DNA of 64,000 bases from Streptosporangiales bacterium (GTDB lineage: Bacteria; Actinomycetota; Actinomycetes; Streptosporangiales; WHSR01), in contig WHSR01000018.1 in assembly GCA_009379995.1 (NCBI GenBank), forward strand, positions 1 to 64,000, in the 5' to 3' direction. Made by a program: the position numbers and the translations under genes. Under the pieces are notes generated by a model. It worked only from the letters and a program-made list of their open reading frames with translations. It was not told where the DNA came from and did not search any database. Shown here one piece after another: positions 5,742 to 53,864 of this stretch; within the stretch, counting starts at the first letter, position 1; each line of letters starts with the position of its first letter.

Positions 5742-5748
5742 GACCCCG

Positions 5749-5817
5749 CCCGCCGAGATCTATGTTGTGGGGCACCGAAACGGACAAAACGACCCCCACA
5801 ACATAGATCTCGGCGGG
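5749..5817. terminator. family B palindrome between convergent genes
   Basis: Inverted repeat with arms containing GAGATCTATGTTGTGG, a central loop of about 20 bases and near-perfect complementarity. The same arms recur at 13359-13422. Both copies sit between the ends of convergent genes, which fits a bidirectional terminator that is also a dispersed repeat. Confidence 0.7.
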
Positions 5818-5827
5818 TGCGGGGCGG

Positions 5828-13351: not shown

Positions 13352-13358
13352 CGCTTTC

Positions 13359-13422
13359 GCCGAGATCTATGTTGTGGGGGTCGTCTTGTCCGATTCGGGC
13401 CCCCACAACATAGATCTCGGCG
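13359..13422. terminator. family B palindrome between convergent genes
   Basis: Second copy of the palindrome at 5749-5817, with arms sharing GAGATCTATGTTGTGG and a different loop. It begins 8 bp after the oxidoreductase stop and ends 16 bp before the aldehyde dehydrogenase stop, so it can terminate both transcripts. Confidence 0.7.
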
Positions 13423-20085: not shown

Positions 20086-23079
20086 ATGGGGAACGCCGAC
20101 CGTATTTCTGAGCTGTACAAGGCCGAGATCTGGGATGAGCAGGCGCAGCGGATAGCGCGCCATCGCATCGGATGGCTCGTCGACCAGGCCCGGGGTGCCG
20201 TATTAGACGTGGGCTGTTCGCAGGGGATCACCTCGATCCTCTGCGCCCGGCGCGGGCTGCGGACGTTGGGCGTTGACGTCGAGCCGGATCGGATCGAATA
20301 CGCGCTTGCGGATCGGATCCGCGAGCCGGAGGTGGTGCGGGAGCTGCTGGAGTTCCGGGTCGGCGACGCCCGCCGGCTGGATCTTCCGGACGCCTCGTTC
20401 GACACAGTGCTGTTGGGTGAGGTCGTCGAGCACCACGTGGACGCCTCGCCGATCCTGGCCGAAGTCGTACGGCTGTTGCGCCCCGCCGGTGTGTTCGCGT
20501 TGACCACGCCCTTCGGGTACCTGCCGCATCACGACCATCGGGCGACGTTCTACGTCAGTTCGTTGTTGAGCCTGCTCACGCCGTTCGTCACGGTCGAGAC
20601 CCTCGACGTCGTCGACGGCTATTTCCGCGCGCTCTGCCGTCCGGGATCGATGCCGCTGGCGGAGCAGCGTGAGTTGCTCGCCGGTCTCCAGCCGGTCGTG
20701 GAGGACGAGTTCCACCGGGCACAGCGGGAGCTGCGGGAGACCCGCGCACGGACGCGTTCCCTGGACTCCCAGCTGGCCGCGGCGACCTCCCGGGCCGGCG
20801 AGCTGGAGGCGCGGCTGGAGAGCGCGCAGCACCAGAACGCCCAGCTCGCCGTGGTGGCGGACCGGCTCGCCGAGGTGGAGCGGCACACGGCCAGGCTGGC
20901 CGGGATAGAGCGGGAGCTGCACGAGACGCGGCAGAGCACCGGCCGGGTCATCGAGCGTCAGGAAGCCACGATCGGGCAGCTCACCGAGGAGCTCAGGACC
21001 ACCAAGAGCCGGTTGGCCGAGGCGCAGGCGCGCGCCACGAAGCTCGACGCCGTCGCAGCGGAGCTGCGGCGTACCCAGGAGCGGCTTCGCTGGCAGTCCT
21101 ACCGGACCCAGTACGTGACTTGGCAGCTCAGTTCGTCCTTCGCCAGGCGTTGGTGGCGGATCGGGCAGGCGTTCTGGAAGGTTCAGAAGGAGCCCTCCCG
21201 GTTCCTGGAGTTTCCCGCCGACATGCTGCGGGCGATACGTAAGAACTCTCGCCCGCAGCCGCCGACCCGGCCCCGGCCCGCGGCGTCCGACCCTCGCGTT
21301 GAGTCCCGGGGCGCGTCAGCGGTCACCTCCCTCCGGGGAGCGCCCGGGGACTCGGCCACCGTCCCGGACATCCCGGAGCTCGTCCTCCCGGACGGCCCGG
21401 TGGTGCGCCAGGACATGACGGTGGCCGTGATCCTGGACGAATTCTCCGCAACGGCCCTGAGGTACGAGTGGCGGCAGGTGGAGCCCGGGCGCGCCGACTG
21501 GCGGGAGGTCCTTGAGCGGGAGCAGCCCTGGCTGCTTTTCGTCGAGTCGACCTGGCAGGGCAACGGCGGGCGCTGGACGGGGCAGCTGGAGGGGCCGAAG
21601 GCCCCCGGTCGTGAGCTGCGCGAGCTCGTCTCCTGGTGCCGCGGCCGCGGGATCCCGACGGTCTTCTGGAACAAGGAGGACCCGTCGAACTTCGACCGCT
21701 TCCTGGAGGCGGCGAAGCTGTTCGACTGGGTCTTCACCGTCGACGGCGACTGCATTCCGCGCTACCGGGAGGCCTTGGGCCACGACCGGATCCGTGTCCT
21801 GCCGTTCGCCGCCCAGCCTCGCCTGCACAACCCGATCTCGCTGCCGGGCGGGCGCCGCTACGGCGTCGCGTTCGGCGGCATGTACTTCAGCCATCGACAC
21901 CCGGAACGGGCCGAGCAGATGCGGACGCTCCTGGAGCCCGCGCGGGAGTTCGGACTGCACATCTTCAGCCGGCATCTCGGGGGAGACTCCAGGTACCAGT
22001 TCCCGTCCGAGTACGACGGGCACGTCGTCGGCTCCCTGCCGTACCGGCGGATGCTCGCCGCGTACCGGTCCTACCGGGTCTTCCTCAATGTGAACTCGGT
22101 GACCGAATCGCCGACCATGTGCGCCCGGCGCATCTTCGAGCTGTCCGCCTGCGGCACGCCCATCCTGTCCGGGCACTCGCGCGCGATCGAGGAGATGTTC
22201 GGGGATCTCGTCGCGACCGCCCGAACCCAGGAGGAGGCCCGCGCCCTGCTGGGCATGCTGCTCGCCAGCCCGCATCTGCGGGACCGGCAGACGCATCTGG
22301 CGATGCGCGAGGTCTTCGCCCGGCACACCTACACCCACCGGGTGGGCACGGTGCTGGAGACCCTGGGCATGCCGACGGCGCACCGGACTCCTTCGGCGTC
22401 GGTCATCATGGCGACGAACCGTCCGGAACAGCTCACCCACGCGATCGAGCAGGTGGCCCGGCAGCGGTGGCGCCCGCTGCAGTTGGTGCTGGTGCGGCAC
22501 GGCGACGGCGCTGACCCGGAGGTGGTTCGCGACAAGGCGATCGCGCACGGCGTCGAGGACGTGGTGGTGCGCTCCGCGGAGGCGTCGTCGACCCTGGGCG
22601 CGTGTCTCAACATGGCTCTCGAGGCCACCGACGGTGAGCTTGTCGCGAAGATGGACGACGACGACGTCTACGGAGAGCACTACCTCTCCGACCTCATACC
22701 GGCCTTCTCCTATACCGACGCCGGCATCGTGGGGAAACGGGCCTTCCACGTCCACCTGGGTTCGACGGGCGCGACGGTGCTGCGCAGCCCCCACCTGGAG
22801 CACAGCTACGTCGACATGGTGATGGGGGCCACCATGGTCGCCCGCGCGGACATCCTCCGGGAGCTGGGTTTCACCGACGTCTCCCGGGGAGAGGACACCC
22901 GGCTGCAGCAGCGGGCCGCCGAGGCGGGTGTGCGGATCTACTCCGGCGACAGGTACTCCTACGTCTGCGTTCGTCAGCCGAGCCCGGAGGCCCACACCTG
23001 GCAGGTGGGCGACGGCGAGTTCTTGCGCAACGCTCGGGTGGAGTTCTACGGCGCGCCGGAGCAGCACGTGCTCATCTGA
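20086..23079 (+). CDS. methyltransferase / coiled-coil / double glycosyltransferase fusion
   Basis: A 997-residue multidomain protein. Residues about 1-195 are a class I SAM methyltransferase (VLDVGCSQG, FDTVLLGEVVEHH). About 210-350 is an Arg/Glu-rich coiled coil. About 420-755 is a CgeB/DUF3880-like glycosyltransferase (PTVFWNKEDPSNFDRF, FELSACGTPILSGHS). About 760-997 is a GT-A glycosyltransferase with PSASVIMATNRPEQLT and the DxD-type segment AKMDDDDVYGEHYL. No membrane segment is seen. This architecture points to assembly and modification of a surface glycan. ATG 20086 follows an AGGGGAG ribosome site; an in-frame GTG at 20029 is less likely. Confidence 0.85.
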   Translation: MGNADRISELYKAEIWDEQAQRIARHRIGWLVDQARGAVLDVGCSQGITSILCARRGLRTLGVDVEPDRIEYALADRIREPEVVRELLEFRVGDARRLDLPDASFDTVLLGEVVEHHVDASPILAEVVRLLRPAGVFALTTPFGYLPHHDHRATFYVSSLLSLLTPFVTVETLDVVDGYFRALCRPGSMPLAEQRELLAGLQPVVEDEFHRAQRELRETRARTRSLDSQLAAATSRAGELEARLESAQHQNAQLAVVADRLAEVERHTARLAGIERELHETRQSTGRVIERQEATIGQLTEELRTTKSRLAEAQARATKLDAVAAELRRTQERLRWQSYRTQYVTWQLSSSFARRWWRIGQAFWKVQKEPSRFLEFPADMLRAIRKNSRPQPPTRPRPAASDPRVESRGASAVTSLRGAPGDSATVPDIPELVLPDGPVVRQDMTVAVILDEFSATALRYEWRQVEPGRADWREVLEREQPWLLFVESTWQGNGGRWTGQLEGPKAPGRELRELVSWCRGRGIPTVFWNKEDPSNFDRFLEAAKLFDWVFTVDGDCIPRYREALGHDRIRVLPFAAQPRLHNPISLPGGRRYGVAFGGMYFSHRHPERAEQMRTLLEPAREFGLHIFSRHLGGDSRYQFPSEYDGHVVGSLPYRRMLAAYRSYRVFLNVNSVTESPTMCARRIFELSACGTPILSGHSRAIEEMFGDLVATARTQEEARALLGMLLASPHLRDRQTHLAMREVFARHTYTHRVGTVLETLGMPTAHRTPSASVIMATNRPEQLTHAIEQVARQRWRPLQLVLVRHGDGADPEVVRDKAIAHGVEDVVVRSAEASSTLGACLNMALEATDGELVAKMDDDDVYGEHYLSDLIPAFSYTDAGIVGKRAFHVHLGSTGATVLRSPHLEHSYVDMVMGATMVARADILRELGFTDVSRGEDTRLQQRAAEAGVRIYSGDRYSYVCVRQPSPEAHTWQVGDGEFLRNARVEFYGAPEQHVLI

Positions 23080-23080
23080 C

Positions 23081-23160
23081 GCTCCTCCCTTGGCCGTGAT
23101 CTTGCAGAAATTTCAAGATATATCTTGAAATTTCTGCAAGATCACGGCCAAGGGAGGAGC
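23081..23160. terminator. 80-bp perfect palindrome, family A
   Basis: Positions 23081-23120 are the exact reverse complement of 23121-23160, with the core GATCTTGCAGAAATTTCAAG. It starts directly after the fusion gene's stop and overlaps the end of the convergent gene, whose stop TGA comes from the repeat's GTGATC. It should act as a bidirectional terminator and is a member of a dispersed repeat family. Confidence 0.8.
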
Positions 23161-24983
23161 AGGGGATAGGGGCGGAGGGTCCTCTTGCCCGAGCCGTTGG
23201 TGAGGTCGATCCGGACCTGCCGGGCGTCGCGGAGCCGATCCTTGGGGAGGGGCACCCACAGCTCCTCCATCCGCTCCGGCTGCTTCGGGTTCCGCCGCCC
23301 GGCGGCGGGATCGTACCGGCCGCCTCCCGGGACCGTGAGCCGTCGCGTTCCTGAGCCCTGCCAGGTCAGTGTGACCGTGCCGGCGTCGAGCCGATAGCCG
23401 CGGACGATCAAGCCGTCGCGTCCGCTTCGCGTGGACAGGAATGCCTGGGTCACGATCGGCCGGTCCCAGTCGCCGGCGATCTCCTCGGCGAGCGACGCCG
23501 GCCTTCCCGCCCGGCAGGTGTACAGCCCGTCCCACATGAACGAAATGACCTTGCTGGGATAGGGCCCGGCGGCGGTGAGCGCTCCGTCCAGCCGGGCCTT
23601 GTCGGTACGGCCCCGCGAGGTGAAGGGGGCACAGCGGGGCTGCCCGGTCGGTTCGAAGGCCTCCAGCGTCGCCCACAGCTCCACGTGTTGGCCGCGCTCG
23701 GCCAGCCGGTCCCGGGCTTGCGCGGCGGCGCGGTAGTAGTCTCTGACCGGCGCGTAGTACGCCTTGTCGTACGTGGTGTCTCCCACCCCGAACACCGGAT
23801 GCAGCCGGCGATCCACCGGTTGCGCGGCCTCGTGGTCCCAGAACGGCGCCGCCTTGCCGGTGCCCCTGCTGTCCTGGGGAGCGATGATGTCCACCCCGGT
23901 GGCGGCGGCGTTCATGAAGCCGGCCCGAACCTGGTCCGGCGGGGTGCCGGAGCCGACCAGGCGGCGGGCATCCCAGTACGGACTGATCAGGATGTCCTTG
24001 GCCGGCAGCACGTCGTCCACCACCGCGTGCTGCGCGGCGTACACCTGCAGGGTCGTCGCCCGGGCCGGATTCCGCCACCGCCGGAGCTGGATCTCGAAGG
24101 TCTGGTAGAAGCCCCGGAACGAGGCGTGGCCGCCGTACCGCTCCGCGTAGCTCCGCAGCACCCGGCGGGTGAAGGCGACCAGGGTGTCGGAGTGGGCGAG
24201 CGACGCGGTCCACTTGTGCACCGGATCGCTCGGTGAGGTGGGCAGGCCGACGAACGCGCTCATGCCGAACCTGTCGGCCTCGTCCAGCATCATCCCCACC
24301 GAGTCGTTCGTCGACCCGGCGACCAGGATCAGCCGGTACTGTCTTCCCTTGCCGAAGTCGCAGGTCTCGTCGCCCGGCGCGTCGGCCGGCAGCAGCAGCC
24401 GGTAGTACACCCGGGAGCCGACCACGAGCCGGCCGTCCATCTCGGGGCAGACCGCCAGCGCCCCGCCGAACGGCTCGGTCGAACGGTAGGCGTAGGTCTG
24501 GACTATCGCGTTGGCCGGGTGGGCGGCGCGCAACGCGTCCCGAGCCGCCTGGTAGCAGGTCTTGCCGCCGTCCACGCAGTCGGTGAACGCCGGATCGACG
24601 GCGCCGGAGTCGTCGAGAACCTGACCGGTCCGCCCGATCCGTCGGGGTTCCAGCCGCGGGCCGAACTGGATCAGCGTGTCGCCCCCGACCCGGTGGATCG
24701 CCTCCAGCGCCGTTCGCCACCCGCAACGGTCCTTCCGCGGGAACACCCAGTAGCCGGAGATCGGATAGGGGTTCGGCACCGACATGTCGGGATCGGCGCA
24801 CCGTACGTTCCCCGGAGACGGTGAGTTCCTGGTGGACATGCCGAACGTCAGTGCGGCCACGCCGAGCATGGTGAGGATGACCACCGCCGACACCAACGGG
24901 GCGCGGCGAACCACCCGCGGCACGTCGGGCCCGGAGGTGCCCGGGGGCCGCGGTGGAGGTGGCGGGCGCGACGGATAGCTCAC
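23142..24983 (-). CDS. membrane-anchored DUF4434-like extracytoplasmic protein
   Basis: 613-residue protein: Pro-rich cytoplasmic leader, one membrane anchor (about 31-50), then an external region opening with ISGYWVFPRKDRCGWRTALE and GGDTLIQFGPRLEP, which resembles the TIM-barrel DUF4434 family related to glycoside hydrolases. Paired acidic/aromatic stretches such as FRGFYQTFEIQ and WATLEAFEP fit a barrel, and a small C-terminal beta domain follows. GTG 24983 overlaps the upstream TGA (GTGA), which sets the start; the long upstream frame to 25787 is a shadow of that gene. Its last residues LLLPWP and stop lie in the palindrome. The family call is moderate. Confidence 0.65.
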   Translation of the reverse strand: MSYPSRPPPPPRPPGTSGPDVPRVVRRAPLVSAVVILTMLGVAALTFGMSTRNSPSPGNVRCADPDMSVPNPYPISGYWVFPRKDRCGWRTALEAIHRVGGDTLIQFGPRLEPRRIGRTGQVLDDSGAVDPAFTDCVDGGKTCYQAARDALRAAHPANAIVQTYAYRSTEPFGGALAVCPEMDGRLVVGSRVYYRLLLPADAPGDETCDFGKGRQYRLILVAGSTNDSVGMMLDEADRFGMSAFVGLPTSPSDPVHKWTASLAHSDTLVAFTRRVLRSYAERYGGHASFRGFYQTFEIQLRRWRNPARATTLQVYAAQHAVVDDVLPAKDILISPYWDARRLVGSGTPPDQVRAGFMNAAATGVDIIAPQDSRGTGKAAPFWDHEAAQPVDRRLHPVFGVGDTTYDKAYYAPVRDYYRAAAQARDRLAERGQHVELWATLEAFEPTGQPRCAPFTSRGRTDKARLDGALTAAGPYPSKVISFMWDGLYTCRAGRPASLAEEIAGDWDRPIVTQAFLSTRSGRDGLIVRGYRLDAGTVTLTWQGSGTRRLTVPGGGRYDPAAGRRNPKQPERMEELWVPLPKDRLRDARQVRIDLTNGSGKRTLRPYPLLLPWP

Positions 24984-27900
24984 GGCGGCGGGGTCCGCCA
25001 CAGGGTTACGTGCTCGCCTTCGAAGTCGGCGCTGGTGCCGACGCCCACGAGCCGTCCGCCGAGCATGGTGAGCCCGTGAACGCGCTGCGTCCCCCCGCCG
25101 GACAGACCTGTACCGCGTGGTGTGATGGGCCGCCACGACGCGCCGTCCGTCGAGGTCCACAGCACGACGTCGTAGGTTGCGGGCGCACCCGAGGTGCTCA
25201 CCGCGGCGAACCCCTCCGCCGTTGGGGTCATCGCGATGGCGCCGGTCTCCAGCTCCGCCGCCCGTGATTCGTCGGGTAGCCGGACCGATCGCCAGGTCTT
25301 GCCTCCGTCGTTGGAGACGACGGAGAAGAGGAAGGCTCCGTTCGCGGACTGCCCAACGCCGAGCGCCGCCACGGTCGAGCCCTTGATCGCCGCCCGGCTG
25401 AGGTAGCCATAGGACGCCTCGGCCGGCAGCGTCGGCTGGTGGACATCCCAGCTCATGCCGTCCTGCGACATCCAGATCGCCGGGCGTTCCTTGCGCGGCC
25501 CCGGGGCGTCGGGGTCGCCGATGGCGCCGACGGCCACGTACCGGGCGGAGTCGGCAGTGACGTCGCCCGTCCAGCGCCACCCGCCGCCCTCGCTGTTCTC
25601 CAGGTCCGGATCGTCGGCCCGCTCCCAGCTCTCCAGGTCGGTCGAGCGCCACGCGGCCGCCTCGACGAGCGAGCCTTCCCGGCGCTCGGCGCCGACGACC
25701 ACGTAGCCCGCCGGGCCGTACGCCGCCGCTGCCGCGCGCCGGTACCACGAGCCCTCTTCGAAGAGCTCGTCGTCGACGCGGCTCCACGACAGCGCGTCCT
25801 CTGACGTGGCGACGAGCGGGTCGGTCTCGTCCGTGCCCACAGCGAGCCAGCCGGCCTCGCCGTAAGCGACGCCGCTGAGCCGCTGCTGACCGTAGCCGTC
25901 CAGGGAATCCTTGCGGGCGGGGGTCCAGGAGTTCTCCCCGGCCGATCCACCTGCCGAGATCCAGGCGGCCGCGTCGCCGTTGGCGCTTCCCACCGCTACC
26001 GTGTTTCCGTCCCCCGCCGCGATCGCGCGGAGGGTCCGTTCCTGGTGTACGGCGCCGGGGACCGTCTGCGGTTCGATCTCGGTCGCCCTCGTGGTGCCCC
26101 GTGCCAGGGCGAGGTACGGGTCCTGGTCCGAGTCCAGCCGGGTGCCCACCACTATCGTGCTACCTCCGGGCGCCGGCGTGAGGCTGCTGAGCGCCCGGAA
26201 GCTGTTCTCGCCGAGGTCGGCCGGTGCCTCCCACCTGCGCCCGTCGCCGCTGCGGTACACCACCGACCGGTCGCTCTCGGTGTTGGCGAGCACCGCGAGG
26301 CCCTCGTCGTTGCCGGCGATGCGCTGGAGGTCCGCGATCTCCACACCGGAGGGCTCGAGGGTGCCGACCGGCTTCCACGCCGCGCCGTCCTGGGAGGTCA
26401 GGACGACGCCGTGGTTGTCCTTTCCGCCCTGCCGGAGGGCGAAGAAGCCGAACCGGTTCGCAGTGATGCCCCGGACCCTCCCGGTGGAGCCGTCGGCCTG
26501 GGGAACGTCGATGGGCTCCCAGGTACGGCCGGCATCCGTGGAACGCCACAGGCCGTCGGCCACCTCGTCGCCCTTGACGACGTCGCCGCCGACGACAATC
26601 ACGTTGCCGCGGGCCGCCGCGAAGCGGAGTTGTCCCACGGTGTCGCCGTCGGTCGGAAGCCGGACCTCATCCGGACCGATGCGTTGCCAGGACGTGCCGT
26701 TCGGGGAGCGCCACAGCACCGGGAGGTCGGCCCGCTGATCGCCGCCCGCGGCGTGGTACCCGGCCGCGACGTACCCACTCGAGGTCCGCGCGATCTGGGC
26801 GACCTCGTCCCGTACGCCGAAGGCGTCGGACCCGCCGCCGAGCTGGCTCCAGGAGCGCCCGTCGCTGCTGGTCCACACGGTCCTGCGGTCGGAAGGGCCG
26901 CCGAACGCCAGCCATCCACCGGAGGTGCCGAAGACCTTGCTCGGGGCGCTGCCGTCGAGCTGGCCGCCCTCGGCCACGGTGACCGGCGCGACGCGCCAGG
27001 TGCTTCCACCGTCGTTGGACACGAGGAACTGAGCCCGCCCGATCGAGCCGCCGTACTCCGACCCCGCTGCCACGACCGTGTTGCCCACCGCCGCGACGTC
27101 CCCGATGACCTGGTGGAGGCCGTCCACGTCCCCTCCCGGAACTGCTTCGAGGACGGTGTCGGCGATGCGTGCGGGAGGGAGCTGGGGGTCTCCGGGTGTA
27201 TGGCCGCTGAGCACGTAGTACAGGCCAGCTCCGCCGCCCAGGACCACGGCGAGGATGCCCACCAGCGCGAGCACCAGTGCCGTGCCGGGAAAGCGGCGCC
27301 GCCTCCTCGCCGGCACGAGCCAGTCCTCCGGTGCTCCCCAGCCGGGCGGGTGCGGCGGCCGGCCGGGCTCGTGGACCCCGGGTGGACGGGGCACCGGCGG
27401 ATGTGGCGCTGGCGGATGGGTTGCCGCGGGCGGGGATTCCCGGAAGCTCGGCGTTCGCCCGGGGGGCGGTCCCTGGGGCGGTCCCGGCGGCGCGGAAGCC
27501 GGGGGAGCCGGGGGAGGGGGTGGAGGGGAAGGCGCAGCCGGCGGGGGGGCATGCGGTACTGGACCCTGCGGTGCCGGAGCTTGCGGCCAGCCGGCCCGCC
27601 AGGCGCGCTCGCTTCCCGGCCAGGGCGACGGACCGCCCGCGGCGTCGCCCCCGCCTCCCTCGGCGGGCTCGCTGGGCAGCCCTGCCCCCCAGCCGTGGTA
27701 CTCGGGGCCCTCGCTCGCCGGCTCCGGCGTTGACCCGTCCGGGTTGGGCGCCAGCCCTCCGGGCGCGTGCTGCTCGGGTGGGTGCCCCTGCCGCGGGTCC
27801 GGCGGTATCCCGTACGGAGGTGTGGGCACCTGCCAGCCGCGGGTCTCGTAGTCAGTTAACGGATCGTCGGGGGACGGCGGAGGGGACCCCGCCTCCCCGC

Positions 27901-27997
27901 GGCGCCATGAACTGGCCGCATCGTCCGGACGCGGCGGCTGCCCAGCCTCCTCGTCGTCTCGCTGGGGACGGGGCTCGGGTGTGCCGTTCGTGCTCAC
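24980..27997 (-). CDS. membrane-anchored beta-propeller protein with BNR/sialidase-like repeats
   Basis: 1005-residue single-pass protein. Residues about 1-225 are a very Pro-rich cytoplasmic tail, about 235-258 are the membrane helix (LVLALVGILAVVLGGGAGLYYV), and the rest is extracellular. It consists of repeated beta-propeller blades with BNR/Asp-box-like elements such as SNDGGSTWR, STDAGRTW and SNDGGKTWRS. No sialidase catalytic residues (RIP motif, nucleophile Tyr) can be identified, so it is probably a binding or scaffold propeller. It overlaps the DUF4434-like gene by 4 bp, so the two are translationally coupled and probably act together at the cell surface. Confidence 0.75.
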   Translation of the reverse strand: MSTNGTPEPRPQRDDEEAGQPPRPDDAASSWRRGEAGSPPPSPDDPLTDYETRGWQVPTPPYGIPPDPRQGHPPEQHAPGGLAPNPDGSTPEPASEGPEYHGWGAGLPSEPAEGGGGDAAGGPSPWPGSERAWRAGWPQAPAPQGPVPHAPPPAAPSPPPPPPAPPASAPPGPPQGPPPGRTPSFRESPPAATHPPAPHPPVPRPPGVHEPGRPPHPPGWGAPEDWLVPARRRRRFPGTALVLALVGILAVVLGGGAGLYYVLSGHTPGDPQLPPARIADTVLEAVPGGDVDGLHQVIGDVAAVGNTVVAAGSEYGGSIGRAQFLVSNDGGSTWRVAPVTVAEGGQLDGSAPSKVFGTSGGWLAFGGPSDRRTVWTSSDGRSWSQLGGGSDAFGVRDEVAQIARTSSGYVAAGYHAAGGDQRADLPVLWRSPNGTSWQRIGPDEVRLPTDGDTVGQLRFAAARGNVIVVGGDVVKGDEVADGLWRSTDAGRTWEPIDVPQADGSTGRVRGITANRFGFFALRQGGKDNHGVVLTSQDGAAWKPVGTLEPSGVEIADLQRIAGNDEGLAVLANTESDRSVVYRSGDGRRWEAPADLGENSFRALSSLTPAPGGSTIVVGTRLDSDQDPYLALARGTTRATEIEPQTVPGAVHQERTLRAIAAGDGNTVAVGSANGDAAAWISAGGSAGENSWTPARKDSLDGYGQQRLSGVAYGEAGWLAVGTDETDPLVATSEDALSWSRVDDELFEEGSWYRRAAAAAYGPAGYVVVGAERREGSLVEAAAWRSTDLESWERADDPDLENSEGGGWRWTGDVTADSARYVAVGAIGDPDAPGPRKERPAIWMSQDGMSWDVHQPTLPAEASYGYLSRAAIKGSTVAALGVGQSANGAFLFSVVSNDGGKTWRSVRLPDESRAAELETGAIAMTPTAEGFAAVSTSGAPATYDVVLWTSTDGASWRPITPRGTGLSGGGTQRVHGLTMLGGRLVGVGTSADFEGEHVTLWRTPPP

Positions 27998-28146
27998 AAT
28001 GCTTTGTCTCCCGCCGCTCAGGTGCCCCCGGTCAAAACGCCGGAATAGCCTGCTTTATACCGGACATCACGCTCGTACCGCTCCATAGGTTCGTCTCCGA
28101 ACGTATAGGTGCGGTTGTCACGGGCAGGACACGTAAATTGGCCGAC

Positions 28147-28386
28147 ATGGGTACGCGTCGAGGCACCGGGCGGATCGAGCAGTGGCCCGACGGCGACTGG
28201 GTGGTGCGCCAGGTCGCGGGCCATGCGGCCAGGAAGACCTATCGTTGCCCAGGCTGCGACCACGAGGTACGGCCAGGTACCCCGCACCTGGTGGCGTGGC
28301 CGGTCTGGGGGCCAACCTGGAACCCCTCCTCCGGGGTCGAGGAGCGGCGGCACTGGCACCCGGCCTGCTGGCGCGCCCGCCGCTGA
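28147..28386 (+). CDS. small putative zinc-binding protein
   Basis: 79-residue conserved actinobacterial type, starting at ATG 28147. It has a CPGC pair (KTYRCPGCDHEVRPGTPH) and a distal HWHPACW, which together give a plausible zinc site. Such proteins are often annotated loosely as ATP/GTP-binding, but no nucleotide motif is present. It is followed by an alpha/beta hydrolase gene 26 bp downstream and may be co-transcribed with it. Confidence 0.75.
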   Translation: MGTRRGTGRIEQWPDGDWVVRQVAGHAARKTYRCPGCDHEVRPGTPHLVAWPVWGPTWNPSSGVEERRHWHPACWRARR

Positions 28387-28411
28387 GAGCTGACCCAATA
28401 GATTCGGGATC

Positions 28412-29119
28412 ATGCAGATACGCCCGAGCACAGTGCTGCCGGCGCACCGTACCCCCATCACCCTGCACACCGCTGACGGGCTGCGGCTCGTCGGCGAGCT
28501 GGCCATGCCACAGGAGCAGGAGCCGGTCGCGACGCTGGTCTGCCTGCATCCGCTGCCCACGCACGGCGGGATGATGGACAGCCACGTGCTCCGCAAGGCC
28601 GCGGCCCGACTCCCGGCGATGGCGAGTCTCGCGATGCTCCGCTTCAACACCCGCGGAACCTCGTCCGAGCAGGGCAGCAGCGAGGGCGAGTTCGCCGGCG
28701 GTGAGGGCGAGCGGTACGACGTGGCGGCCGCGCTCGAGTACGCCGATTTCGAAGAGCTGCCGCGGCCGTGGCTGCTCGGCTGGTCGTTCGGCACCGAACT
28801 GGCCCTGCGGTGGGGATGCGACCCGGTGGTCGAGGGCGCGGTCCTGCTGTCGCCGCCGCTGCGCCGCGCGACCGAGGCCGACATGGACGTGTGGGCGAAG
28901 TCCGGGGTGCCGGTCGTCGCCCTGGTGCCGGAGCTCGATGACTATCTGCGCCCCGACGAGGCGCGCGCCCGCTTCTCCCGCATACCGCAGGCCGAGGTGA
29001 TCGGGGTGGAAGGGGCGCGGCACCTGTGGGTGGGTGAGCCGTACGTACGGATCGTGCTGAACGAGATCGTGAAGCGGGTCGCCCCGCAGGCGTACCCCCT
29101 CCCCGAGGGGTGGCCGTAG
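28412..29119 (+). CDS. alpha/beta hydrolase
   Basis: 235-residue cytoplasmic alpha/beta hydrolase. Visible: LVCLHPLPTHGGMMDSHV (oxyanion region), RFNTRGTSSEQG and the nucleophile elbow GWSFGTE with Ser125; the catalytic Asp is probably in LVPELDDYLRPDE and the His in GARHLW. It resembles the small KANL3/Tex30-like or dienelactone-like hydrolases. It lies 9 bp upstream of a short-chain dehydrogenase gene, so an operon is likely. The substrate is unknown. Confidence 0.88.
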   Translation: MQIRPSTVLPAHRTPITLHTADGLRLVGELAMPQEQEPVATLVCLHPLPTHGGMMDSHVLRKAAARLPAMASLAMLRFNTRGTSSEQGSSEGEFAGGEGERYDVAAALEYADFEELPRPWLLGWSFGTELALRWGCDPVVEGAVLLSPPLRRATEADMDVWAKSGVPVVALVPELDDYLRPDEARARFSRIPQAEVIGVEGARHLWVGEPYVRIVLNEIVKRVAPQAYPLPEGWP

Positions 29120-29128
29120 GATCCGAAG

Positions 29129-29893
29129 ATGGTGACCGGTGCCGAGCTGAGCGGCAAGAGTGCCTTCGTCACGGGGGCTTCGCGCGGGATCGGGCGGGCC
29201 ATCGCGGTCGGGTTCGCCGCCGCGGGTGCTGATGTCGCGCTCGTCGCCCGTACCGAGGACGCCCTGAACGAGGTCGCCGCCGAGATCGAGACCCACGGCC
29301 GCAAGGCCCTGGTGCTGCCCAGCGACGTCACCGACCGGGACGCCGTGTACGCCGCCGTGGCTCGGACGGCCGAGGCGTTCGGAGGGATCGACGTCGTGGT
29401 CAACAACGCGGGCGGTACCCGGTTCGCCGTGCCGTTCACCGAGATGCGCTTCTCCGGCTGGGAGAAGGTGATGCGGCTCAACGTCGACGCGGCCGTGCAC
29501 GTCTGCGGTGCGGTTGGACCACACCTGCTGGAGCGCGGATCCGGGGCGGTCATCAACGTCGCCTCGGTGGCGGGGCTGGTCGGCTCGCCGGGCGTCGCGC
29601 CGTACGGTGCCTCGAAGTCCGCGCTGATCTCACTCACCAAGACGCTCGCCGTGGAGTGGGCACCACACGGCGTGCGGGTAAACGCGCTGTGCCCGGGATG
29701 GGTGGCCACCGAGCTGAACCGCAACCTGTGGGGCGACGAGGGGGCCTCGGCGATGCTGATGTCCCGGGTGCCGATGGACCGCTGGGCGCGCGTCGAGGAG
29801 ATGATCGCCCCGGCGGTGTTCCTGGCCAGCGACGCCTCGTCGTACATGACCGGGCACGTCCTCGTCATCGACGGCGGCCAGTCCGCGACGTAG
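29129..29893 (+). CDS. short-chain dehydrogenase/reductase
   Basis: 254-residue classical SDR that uses NAD(P)H. It has the cofactor motif TGASRGIGRAIAVGF (about 17-31), NNAGG, the catalytic Ser in INVASVAGLVG, YGASKSAL (Tyr-x-x-x-Lys) and a C-terminal MTGHVLVIDGGQSAT typical of FabG-like members. The substrate cannot be told from sequence. It is the middle gene of a small cluster of two hydrolases and this reductase. Confidence 0.93.
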   Translation: MVTGAELSGKSAFVTGASRGIGRAIAVGFAAAGADVALVARTEDALNEVAAEIETHGRKALVLPSDVTDRDAVYAAVARTAEAFGGIDVVVNNAGGTRFAVPFTEMRFSGWEKVMRLNVDAAVHVCGAVGPHLLERGSGAVINVASVAGLVGSPGVAPYGASKSALISLTKTLAVEWAPHGVRVNALCPGWVATELNRNLWGDEGASAMLMSRVPMDRWARVEEMIAPAVFLASDASSYMTGHVLVIDGGQSAT

Positions 29894-29978
29894 CCGGGGA
29901 GCCGATCCGAGTCCGCAACCGGGCCAGCAACGCGGAACCCGACGAAAGCCCGCAGGCCTACCCGGTACCGTTTCGCCT

Positions 29979-30770
29979 ATGCCGGTTGAGCTCTACTCCC
30001 GCGAGGCCGGGACCGGCCTGCCCTTGGTGTTACTGCACGCCTTTCCGCTGTCGTCGGCGATGTGGCTCGCGCAGCGGGAAGGGCTGTCCGGTGTGTGCCG
30101 GGTGATCACGCCAGACCTGCGCGGCTGGGGTGGCTCGCCGCTCGGCGGCGAGGACCCGTCGATCGATCTCATGGCCGACGACGTGGCCGCGCTGCTGGAC
30201 TCGAAGAACATCGATCGGGCGGTCGTCGGCGGCCAGTCCATGGGCGGGTACGTGGCCATGGCGTTCCTGCGCCGCCATCCCGACCGGGTTCTGGGCCTGA
30301 TCCTCGCCGACACCAAGGCCGGCGCCGACCCGGAGGCGGCCCGGGCGAACCGGGAACGCAGCGCCGCCCGGGTGCTCGCCGACGAGCGGCCCGACGTGCT
30401 GCTGGAGGAGGTCCTTCCGGGCTTGGTGGGCTCTACCACGAAGGAGCGGCGAGCCCTGGTGTACGGACGGGTCCGCGGGCTCGTCCAGTCGGCGCCGCCG
30501 CCGGCGGCGGCCTGGTCGCTGCGGGCCATGGCGAGCCGTCCCGACTCCTTCGAGATGTTGCGCAAGGCCCGGGTGCCCGCCCTGGTCCTGGTGGGCGAGG
30601 AGGACCAACTGTCGCCCGTGGCCGATGCCGAGGCGACGGCGGACGCGCTTCCGGAGGCCCGGATGGTGACGATCCCCGATGCTGGTCACCTCACCGCCGT
30701 GGAACAGCCCGAGGCGTTCAACGAGGCCGTCCGCGAGTTCGTCGCGGGCCTGCCCCGTACTGCGGCCTGA
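29979..30770 (+). CDS. alpha/beta hydrolase (3-oxoadipate enol-lactonase-like)
   Basis: 263-residue hydrolase: PLVLLHAFPLSSAMW (oxyanion His-Ala), nucleophile elbow GGQSMGGY with Ser87, Asp in LVGEEDQLSPVADAE and His in PDAGHLTAVEQPE. The sequence fits the general fold-peroxidase/lactonase group; 'enol-lactonase' is only the closest familiar label. An in-frame shift of the same DNA reads on into the palindrome downstream but is not coding. Confidence 0.88.
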   Translation: MPVELYSREAGTGLPLVLLHAFPLSSAMWLAQREGLSGVCRVITPDLRGWGGSPLGGEDPSIDLMADDVAALLDSKNIDRAVVGGQSMGGYVAMAFLRRHPDRVLGLILADTKAGADPEAARANRERSAARVLADERPDVLLEEVLPGLVGSTTKERRALVYGRVRGLVQSAPPPAAAWSLRAMASRPDSFEMLRKARVPALVLVGEEDQLSPVADAEATADALPEARMVTIPDAGHLTAVEQPEAFNEAVREFVAGLPRTAA

Positions 30771-30788
30771 GGACCTGTTGTCGTCTCC

Positions 30789-30854
30789 CCCTGGCCGTGA
30801 TCTTGCAGAAATTTCAAGACCGGTCTTGAAATTTCTGCAAGATCACGGCCAGGG
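30789..30854. terminator. 66-bp perfect palindrome, family A
   Basis: Perfect about a centre between 30821 and 30822 (core ACCGGT), sharing GATCTTGCAGAAATTTCAAG with the 23081 copy but with a different centre. It sits between convergent genes ending at 30770 and 30878. A short tandem duplication (GGCCAGGGTCGCA twice) follows on its right side. Confidence 0.8.
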
Positions 30855-30877
30855 TCGCACGGCCAGGGTCGCAGCTC

Positions 30878-32074
30878 TCAGAACACGGCGGACTCCATCA
30901 CCAGGTCGTTCTCGGCGAACCTGGTGGGGCGCAGCGGGCGCAGGTCGAACGTCGAGCACTCACCACTGGTCACGATCTCGGCGACCGCCCGCCCCGCGGC
31001 CGGCGCGTGCATGAGCCCGTGCCCACCGAAACCCGCGCACTGCACGAAGCGCGGCAGCGGCGGCGGTGCGCCGAGCACCGCGTGGTGGTCCGGCGTCTCC
31101 GGGTAGAGGCCTGCCCAGCAGTGGCGCGGGTTGATGGGTACGTTCTCCAGGAACGGGAAACGCCGCCCGATGCGGCCCGCGAGCTGGGGGAGGAAGTCAG
31201 GGTCGACGGTGGTCTCCCGACCGGGCGGGTCGTCCGGGTTGGAGTACGCGAGCACGTACCCTCCGCTCTTCTCACGCCGGACCAGGACTCCGGTGTCCAG
31301 GTCGACGCACATCGGGATGAGCCCTCCGTCCGGCCCATGGGCGGGCGGCCCCTCGACGTAGGCGAGGTTGCGGCGAACCGGCTGGATGGGGAGATCCAGC
31401 GACAGCATGGCGGCAACTGATGCGGCATCCGGCCCGGCCGCGTTCACCACCCATTCGCAGCCGAAGTCGCCCGCGTCGGAGGAGATCCGGAACCCGGACC
31501 GGCCCTCCGACCGGCCCTCCGACCGGATCGACCGCACCGCGGCGTCGGTCACGACCGTGGCGCCGTACCCCCGTGCCTGTGCGGCCAGGAACGCGACAAC
31601 TCCGTGCGGGTCGACGATGCCGTCCCGGGCGTGGAACGTCCCGGCGAGCAGCCCGTCCGGCCGGAGGAACGGGGCGCGATCGAGTACCTCGTCGGTGGAC
31701 AGCCACTCGGTGTCCACGCCCATCGCGCGTTGCAGGTCGTGGGCGGCGCGCAAGCCACACAGGCCGTCGGCGGTCCCTGTGAAGAGCAGATAGCCGACCT
31801 GGTGGAAGCCGAGTTCGCCGCCGCTTTCCGCGTGCATCCGCTCGAACTCGGTCAGCGAGTACCGGGAGAACTCGATGTTCGGCCGGGTGGAGAACTGGGC
31901 CCGCACCCCGCCGTTCGCCCGGGACGAGGAGCCCTGGCCAACGCCGCCGCGACCCTCCAACACCACAACCGAGTCGACCCCGGCCCGACGCAGCTCGCCG
32001 GCGGCCGCCAGCCCAATCACGCCGGCACCTATCACTACGACGTCCGCTCCGCGCACGGGACCGATTGTGCCCAC
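30878..32074 (-). CDS. FAD-dependent amino-acid/sarcosine oxidase-like oxidoreductase (DAO family)
   Basis: 398-residue D-amino-acid oxidase/sarcosine oxidase family flavoprotein. N-terminal FAD motif VVVIGAGVIGLAAAGELRRAG, then GQGSSSRANGGVRAQ, VNAAGPDA and C-terminal CAGFGGHGLMHAPAAG, which binds the flavin. It probably oxidises a secondary or cyclic amine. GTG 32074 or 32056 are both possible starts; the Rossmann motif follows in either case. A tandem 12-bp repeat encodes GRSEGRSEGRSG in the middle of the protein. Confidence 0.88.
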   Translation of the reverse strand: MGTIGPVRGADVVVIGAGVIGLAAAGELRRAGVDSVVVLEGRGGVGQGSSSRANGGVRAQFSTRPNIEFSRYSLTEFERMHAESGGELGFHQVGYLLFTGTADGLCGLRAAHDLQRAMGVDTEWLSTDEVLDRAPFLRPDGLLAGTFHARDGIVDPHGVVAFLAAQARGYGATVVTDAAVRSIRSEGRSEGRSGFRISSDAGDFGCEWVVNAAGPDAASVAAMLSLDLPIQPVRRNLAYVEGPPAHGPDGGLIPMCVDLDTGVLVRREKSGGYVLAYSNPDDPPGRETTVDPDFLPQLAGRIGRRFPFLENVPINPRHCWAGLYPETPDHHAVLGAPPPLPRFVQCAGFGGHGLMHAPAAGRAVAEIVTSGECSTFDLRPLRPTRFAENDLVMESAVF

Positions 32075-40102: not shown

Positions 40103-40270
40103 GTGGAACGATTTCGGGTGGAACCCGCCGCCCTCGAGGCTTGCGCGGCGGCCCACGACGGTCTTGGGGATGAAACGGATCAGACCCGGCAGCGGCTCGT
40201 AACCCACGCCCCCCGATTTGGCCGTGATCTTGCAGAAATTCAAACCGGCCCGCTTTGTCTTTCTCCGTAA
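40103..40270 (+). pseudogene. truncated EspC-like (DUF2580) protein cut by a repeat
   Basis: GTG 40103 opens a 55-residue frame VERFRVEPAALEACAAAHDG..., which matches the N-terminus of ESX EspC-like/WXG100 proteins (about 100-130 residues). After RLVTHAPRFGRDLAE the frame runs into a family A repeat and stops at TAA 40268-40270 inside it. The C-terminal half is therefore missing. The start lies 3 bp after the YbaB stop, so the two once formed a pair. Confidence 0.65.
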
Positions 40271-40289
40271 GATCACGGCCAAGGGGGGA
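40212..40289. repeat. family A palindrome, asymmetric variant
   Basis: Outer arms TTGGCCGTGATCTT and AAGATCACGGCCAA are complementary, but the inside (GCAGAAATTCAAACCGGC, then GCTTTGTCTTTCTCCGT) is not palindromic. The inside matches the copy at 139-200. It carries the stop codon of the truncated EspC-like frame. Confidence 0.75.
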
Positions 40290-53846: not shown

Positions 53847-53864
53847 TCTGCAAGATCACGGCCA
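53847..53864. repeat. half-site of family A palindrome
   Basis: TCTGCAAGATCACGGCCA is one arm of the family A palindrome, directly after the stop of the unknown gene and before the convergent eccD stop. The other arm is not seen, so it is a decayed copy. Confidence 0.65.

Follow-up and report, generated by a model that had tools for sequence, protein, structure and literature searches.

The window, meaning the whole 64,000-nt stretch of DNA analysed here, contains two long perfect palindromes between convergent open reading frames (ORFs). The first, at 23081-23160, is exact over 80 bp, its 40-nt arms (23081-23120 and 23121-23160) being 100% complementary with no spacer. Upstream of it lies an ORF that by eye resembles methyltransferases or glycosyltransferases (20086-23079, + strand), with its stop 15 bp before the conserved core of the palindrome (CGTGATCTTG...CAAGATCACG, 23095-23146). 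The facing ORF (23142-24893, - strand) has as its called stop the TGA of a CGTGATC in the right arm. The second palindrome, at 30789-30854, is exact over 66 bp (33-nt arms 30789-30821 and 30822-30854, 100% complementary) and lies between an alpha/beta-hydrolase-like ORF (29979-30770, + strand) that ends before it and a FAD-dependent oxidoreductase-like ORF (30878-32056, - strand) that ends after it, both likenesses again by eye. The stops are at 23079 (+) and 23142 (-) for the first pair, and at 30770 (+) and 30878 (-) for the second. The two palindromes have GGCCGTGATCTTGCAGAAATTTCAAGA in common and differ in loop and outer arms. The first-pass annotation had described a perfect 80-bp palindrome with a related copy at 30789-30854, and it was right on both.

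Within the window, GATCTTGCAGAAATTTCAAG has four exact matches and two with three mismatches, where 0.01 would be expected; we call this family F1. The copy at 40218-40282, form B, carries the same foot on either side, with inner arms that are unlike (AGAAATTCAAAC versus ACGGAGAAAGACAAAGCGG). A second form B copy, at about 136-197, has lost or damaged its outer left arm. Such copies had been taken for decayed ones; related forms are indeed present, but form B is a recurrent asymmetric subtype with at least five copies in the 1.19 Mb sampled, even though the copy at 136-197 also lacks its outer left arm. At 53850 on the - strand stands a single CGTGATCTTGCAG arm whose partner is absent.

The first-pass annotation had proposed a dispersed element and suggested a genome-wide count, which bears the proposal out. 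The source genome, a 5.8-Mb draft in 168 contigs and 94% complete, holds 126 CGTGATCTTG...CAAGATCACG pairs (the foot and its reverse complement, 12-42 bases apart), and the reversed-pattern control in the same genome gives none. The foot word is nearly confined to these pairs, with 109 of its 121 occurrences paired. The analysis of gene context covered 1.19 Mb, obtained region by region and mostly chosen around copies, with genes called by a home-made codon-usage gene caller. This sample contains 92 exact pairs and is enriched, since in 138 kb of fill-in DNA (two contigs) the element occupies only one of 13 convergent gene pairs.

Placement follows gene ends closely. Among the 92 copies, 45 lie between convergent genes, 30 between tandem genes and four between divergent genes, while 11 overlap ORFs and two are at contig edges; the same 1.19 Mb contains 168 convergent, 741 tandem and 163 divergent pairs of adjacent genes. 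Convergent regions hold 45 of the 79 intergenic copies against 13.5 expected from intergenic bases (p about 6e-21), a strong enrichment that upholds the core of the earlier claim that full copies sit between convergent genes, but not the claim that all do. Random placement, or intragenic and divergent copies as frequent as convergent ones, was also examined and is not the case. The median distance to a stop codon is 17 bp, with nearly all copies within 35 bp, compared with a median of 89 bp (range 28-826 bp) to a start codon, and for 19 copies the repeat itself provides the called stop, the TGA of CGTGATC. All 30 tandem copies are closer to the upstream gene's stop than to the downstream gene's start. 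The tightest placement rule is thus 'just after a stop codon', which describes the copies better than 'convergent'; F1 marks 3' ends, and a convergent pair is two 3' ends together. C makes up 52% of the 12 nt that separate stop and element, compared with 36% after other stops.

The F1 core spans about 62 bp and consists of TTGGCCGTGATCTTGCAG, a variable arm, a short loop and the mirror image. A check of arm identity, also suggested by the earlier annotation, finds full complementarity in both window palindromes and covariation of the arms across copies. Where the stem varies, matches between the arms are much commoner than with reshuffled partners (z 5-10). Outer variants (GC, CC, GT or TC before the foot) and inner variants occur in 16 fully complementary combinations, so double changes have recurred. 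In the 16-nt core only 20 of 1600 cells are non-complementary, mostly from form B, and excess complementarity stops about 16 bp outside GATC. Because the arms covary in so many combinations, arm pairing has evidently been kept or repaired; selection on RNA, or arm-to-arm correction of DNA, could either of them preserve it. Maintenance by transfer or gene conversion, as the first-pass annotation had suggested, is thereby supported as far as the upkeep or repair of pairing goes. As an 80-nt RNA, 23081-23160 folds at -74.2 kcal/mol (z = -16.9), and the palindrome at 30789-30854 likewise yields a very stable RNA hairpin.

Insertions can be traced by comparison with homologues, which also supports a dispersed element. 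At L204 the element lies in frame within a cbiG/cobJ ORF and is missing from all six relatives with homologues, in one of which (L242) the linker is shorter by exactly 21 codons. A second copy lies within malQ (L220), where 16 relatives have no copy and the net gain is 13 residues, so that some host bases must have been lost. Since both copies are absent from relatives' homologues, the element inserts. The cbiG copy is flanked by CTCCCGCCCCCG and GGGGCGGCGGTGGGG, where a C-run meets a G-run. The site is proline-rich in relatives too, which weakens the suggestion that the outer C-rich and G-rich arms belong to the mobile unit. Elsewhere, livM and livG form one 579-residue ORF fused in frame through an F1 copy (L195:5210-6949). 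At L198:5130-5954, an aldehyde dehydrogenase gene ends about midway, at an F1 copy, and the next gene, immediately after, encodes a zinc alcohol dehydrogenase.

The exact core of the source genome was not found in other GTDB genomes, nor in 60 relatives at one mismatch. The outer CGTGATCTTG foot, with other inner arms, is present in Nocardiopsis, Microbispora, Sphaerimonospora, Kineococcus, Actinomadura and Streptosporangiaceae MAGs, and distant sampled families also carry foot pairs (67 copies in G332, 32 in G630). Here we rely on exact-pair counts, because covariance-model matches in relatives may include generic hairpins. Occurrence is patchy, with carriers among 23 of 299 genomes of the order and six of 395 drawn across the class. 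At one orthologous convergent site in Nocardiopsis, G064 has some 550 bp of additional DNA that includes the hairpin and a repeated block of 160 bp, and most relatives have other, shorter hairpins; some hairpin is retained there while the sequence is replaced. About 50 bp separate this block (about 160 bp; L089:1288-1445) from the hairpin, and the block turns up in several Nocardiopsis genomes, often in two inverted copies that enclose the hairpin. In Sphaerimonospora and Microbispora, a central hairpin is flanked on each side by feet at 53-bp intervals, and the resulting array regions of 219-335 nt fold largely as long rods. Mirror-nested 53-bp arrays lie at gene 3' ends at L118, L124, L131, L132 and L143, the arrays of two Microbispora species (L124, L131) sharing a locus, as apparently do those of two Sphaerimonospora species (L118, L132).

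We consider it probable that F1 is a REP-like dispersed hairpin kept directly after stop codons, where it would act, as we infer, as a two-way 3'-end hairpin. The hairpin would have spread through the genome, presumably by means of a mobilising enzyme, and have been retained just after stops. Because the element is its own reverse complement, transcripts arriving from either side would contain the same 25-40 bp hairpin, which most likely sets the 3' ends of both convergent mRNAs and protects them. It might do so by terminating transcription as a U-less (I-shaped) hairpin, or by blocking 3'-to-5' exonucleases once Rho-dependent release has taken place. Several factors support this reading: the 126 copies, their placement at stops, the covariation, the stable RNA hairpins and the cbiG and malQ insertions, together with two other hairpin families found after stops and the retained Nocardiopsis site hairpin. 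So do the like placement of REPs in other phyla (PMC3733652) and the U-poor structured 3' ends of Streptomyces (PMC8269248). The bidirectional-terminator role proposed earlier is compatible with a symmetric hairpin and with the stop-side position of all tandem copies. On the other side, the hairpin has no U-tract, a strong terminator fits awkwardly with the copy at the livM-livG junction and with copies in ORFs, and the conservation of the foot across genera exceeds what a hairpin alone would need.

Since coding sequence takes up about 86% of the genome and insertions are best tolerated in 3' flanks, a REP-like repeat that is selfish and serves no host function could insert widely and still survive mainly after stops. 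Insertions inside genes are what such a repeat would produce, as are patchy bursts such as that of G332, which has its 67 copies where two genomes of the same genus have none, and the scarcity of divergent copies could reflect purifying selection at promoters. Even so, we judge it rather unlikely: copies keep closer to the stop than tolerance would demand, the tandem copies are all stop-side despite room downstream, and complementarity has been held through recurrent double changes.

A role in supercoiling or nucleoid organisation where convergent transcription collides has been proposed for BIME elements, and F1 could similarly be a DNA-level site whose CGTGATCTTG pairs are recognised by a protein. 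The foot is conserved across families while the inner arms vary, the word occurs almost only in pairs, and the exact 53-bp spacing of the Sphaerimonospora and Microbispora arrays corresponds to about five helical turns. Against this, tandem copies are as bound to stops as convergent ones, foot-to-foot distance differs between genomes, from 36 to 61 bp, and a protein candidate is absent, making this explanation quite improbable.

A degraded ISL3-family insertion sequence lies inside one F1 copy (L066:7632-8640), with the inner hairpin on both sides; ISL3 was rejected as the parent element because this is the one nested case found and has ends of its own. It is highly improbable that F1 is a MITE derived by deletion from a DDE-type insertion sequence with CGTGATCTTG as terminal inverted repeat: symmetric conserved ends, a variable interior, high copy number and the copy with an ISL3 transposase gene between its halves would fit, but tested boundaries show no target-site duplication or flanking direct repeat (best 6 of 92, for 3 nt), the nested element has its own GGCTCTTCG ends, and foot-adjacent positions covary as inverted rather than direct repeats. 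The Y1/RAYT transposase (PF01797) is absent from the source genome, a 94%-complete draft whose missing part may hold the gene, and also from seven of 12 other carrier genomes.

REP repeats, with which we compare this dispersed 3'-end hairpin, are known chiefly from proteobacteria. F1 shares with them a high copy number, a position mostly within about 20 bp of ORF 3' ends in both convergent and unidirectional settings, and intragenic copies and stop codons provided by the repeat. GTAG and CGTC REPs are palindromic, high in copy number and located mostly downstream of ORFs (Di Nocera et al., PMC3733652). Fewer than 20 bp separate a convergent REP from either 3' end, intragenic REP copies encode 20-30 residues, REPs supply stop codons, CGTC REPs have no dedicated transposase, and REPs of other phyla show the same stop-side placement (PMC3733652). 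The host of F1, however, is an actinobacterium, a group that this survey leaves unmentioned (PMC3733652). Unlike GTAG and CGTC REPs, with stems of about 8-20 bp, F1 has fully symmetric stems of 25-40 bp. CGTC REPs are defined by an unpaired CGTC tag, an 8-9 bp stem and a CCA tail, and F1 stems are far longer. A search for unpaired tags in 184 24-nt flanks found GTAG in eight and GTGG in seven, the F1 structure being symmetric, and CGTC in 24, close to the composition prediction (a hand estimate of 25). F1 is therefore REP-like, lying outside both REP superfamilies because the tags are absent, the stems are far longer and no Y1 transposase was found. BIMEs and REPINs resemble F1 in the inverted, regularly spaced short motif at 3' ends in Sphaerimonospora and Microbispora only; units in the source genome are instead single hairpins, and arrays elsewhere are mirror-nested in 53-bp steps.

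In Streptomyces clavuligerus, U-poor structured 3' ends have been reported, with C enriched upstream and G downstream at structured ends (PMC8269248). F1 resembles these I-shaped or HS-U-lack ends in its stable post-stop hairpin, C-rich on the 5' side and G-rich on the 3' side with no U-tract (PMC8269248), but the Streptomyces hairpins are gene-specific, whereas F1 is a dispersed repeat with a putative terminator role. A search for U-tracts or classical intrinsic terminators found no terminator-like site in 22000-32000, where G-rich sequence follows the stem. DNA uptake sequences, which occur in inverted pairs at terminators, share with F1 a conserved short word paired after genes; an uptake word was rejected, as the foot is nearly absent outside pairs. 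Rickettsia palindromic elements also insert palindromes that stay in frame within genes, but most F1 copies are intergenic at 3' ends, and to our knowledge the sequences are unrelated. Rfam gave no match above the gathering threshold in the window, only sub-threshold hairpin matches, and in the CC-licensed literature we found no description of the core words or of actinobacterial palindromes at convergent ends.

More broadly, F1 may belong to an undescribed actinobacterial superfamily of mobile hairpins with a paired CGTGATCTTG foot, moved by a non-RAYT enzyme into the centres of C-rich/G-rich palindromes, chiefly pre-existing terminator hairpins; this idea is tentative and on balance doubtful. 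If correct, it would account for placement at stop codons and for outer arms that are unique yet complementary, as well as for the CCCCC|GGGG site of the cbiG insertion and the mirror-nested Sphaerimonospora layers. REP elements without RAYT raise the question of how they spread, and F1 is a high-copy, symmetric, RAYT-less actinobacterial hairpin with traceable insertions and a foot shared across families, and so would lend itself to tests of both mobilisation and 3'-end function. It also suggests that exchangeable repeats, rather than terminators specific to each gene, make up part of the 3' ends of genes in such genomes.

Two other hairpin families occur at gene ends in the source genome. 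The second family, CGCCGAGATCTATGTTGTGGGGG and CCCCCACAACATAGATCTCGGCG separated by about 20 nt, has 13 copies with exact arms in the 1.19 Mb, 7-34 bp after stops; examples are at 5744-5822 and 13358-13422 in the window and at L033:909-973, L199:9156-9220, L230:14354-14420 and L070:4633-4715. The third family, CGATGAATGGGCCATTCA...TGAATGGCCCATTCATCG, likewise lies near stops, with copies at L069:4503-4555, L066:15674-15728, L050:9128-9182, L060:4554-4606 and L034:972-1023.
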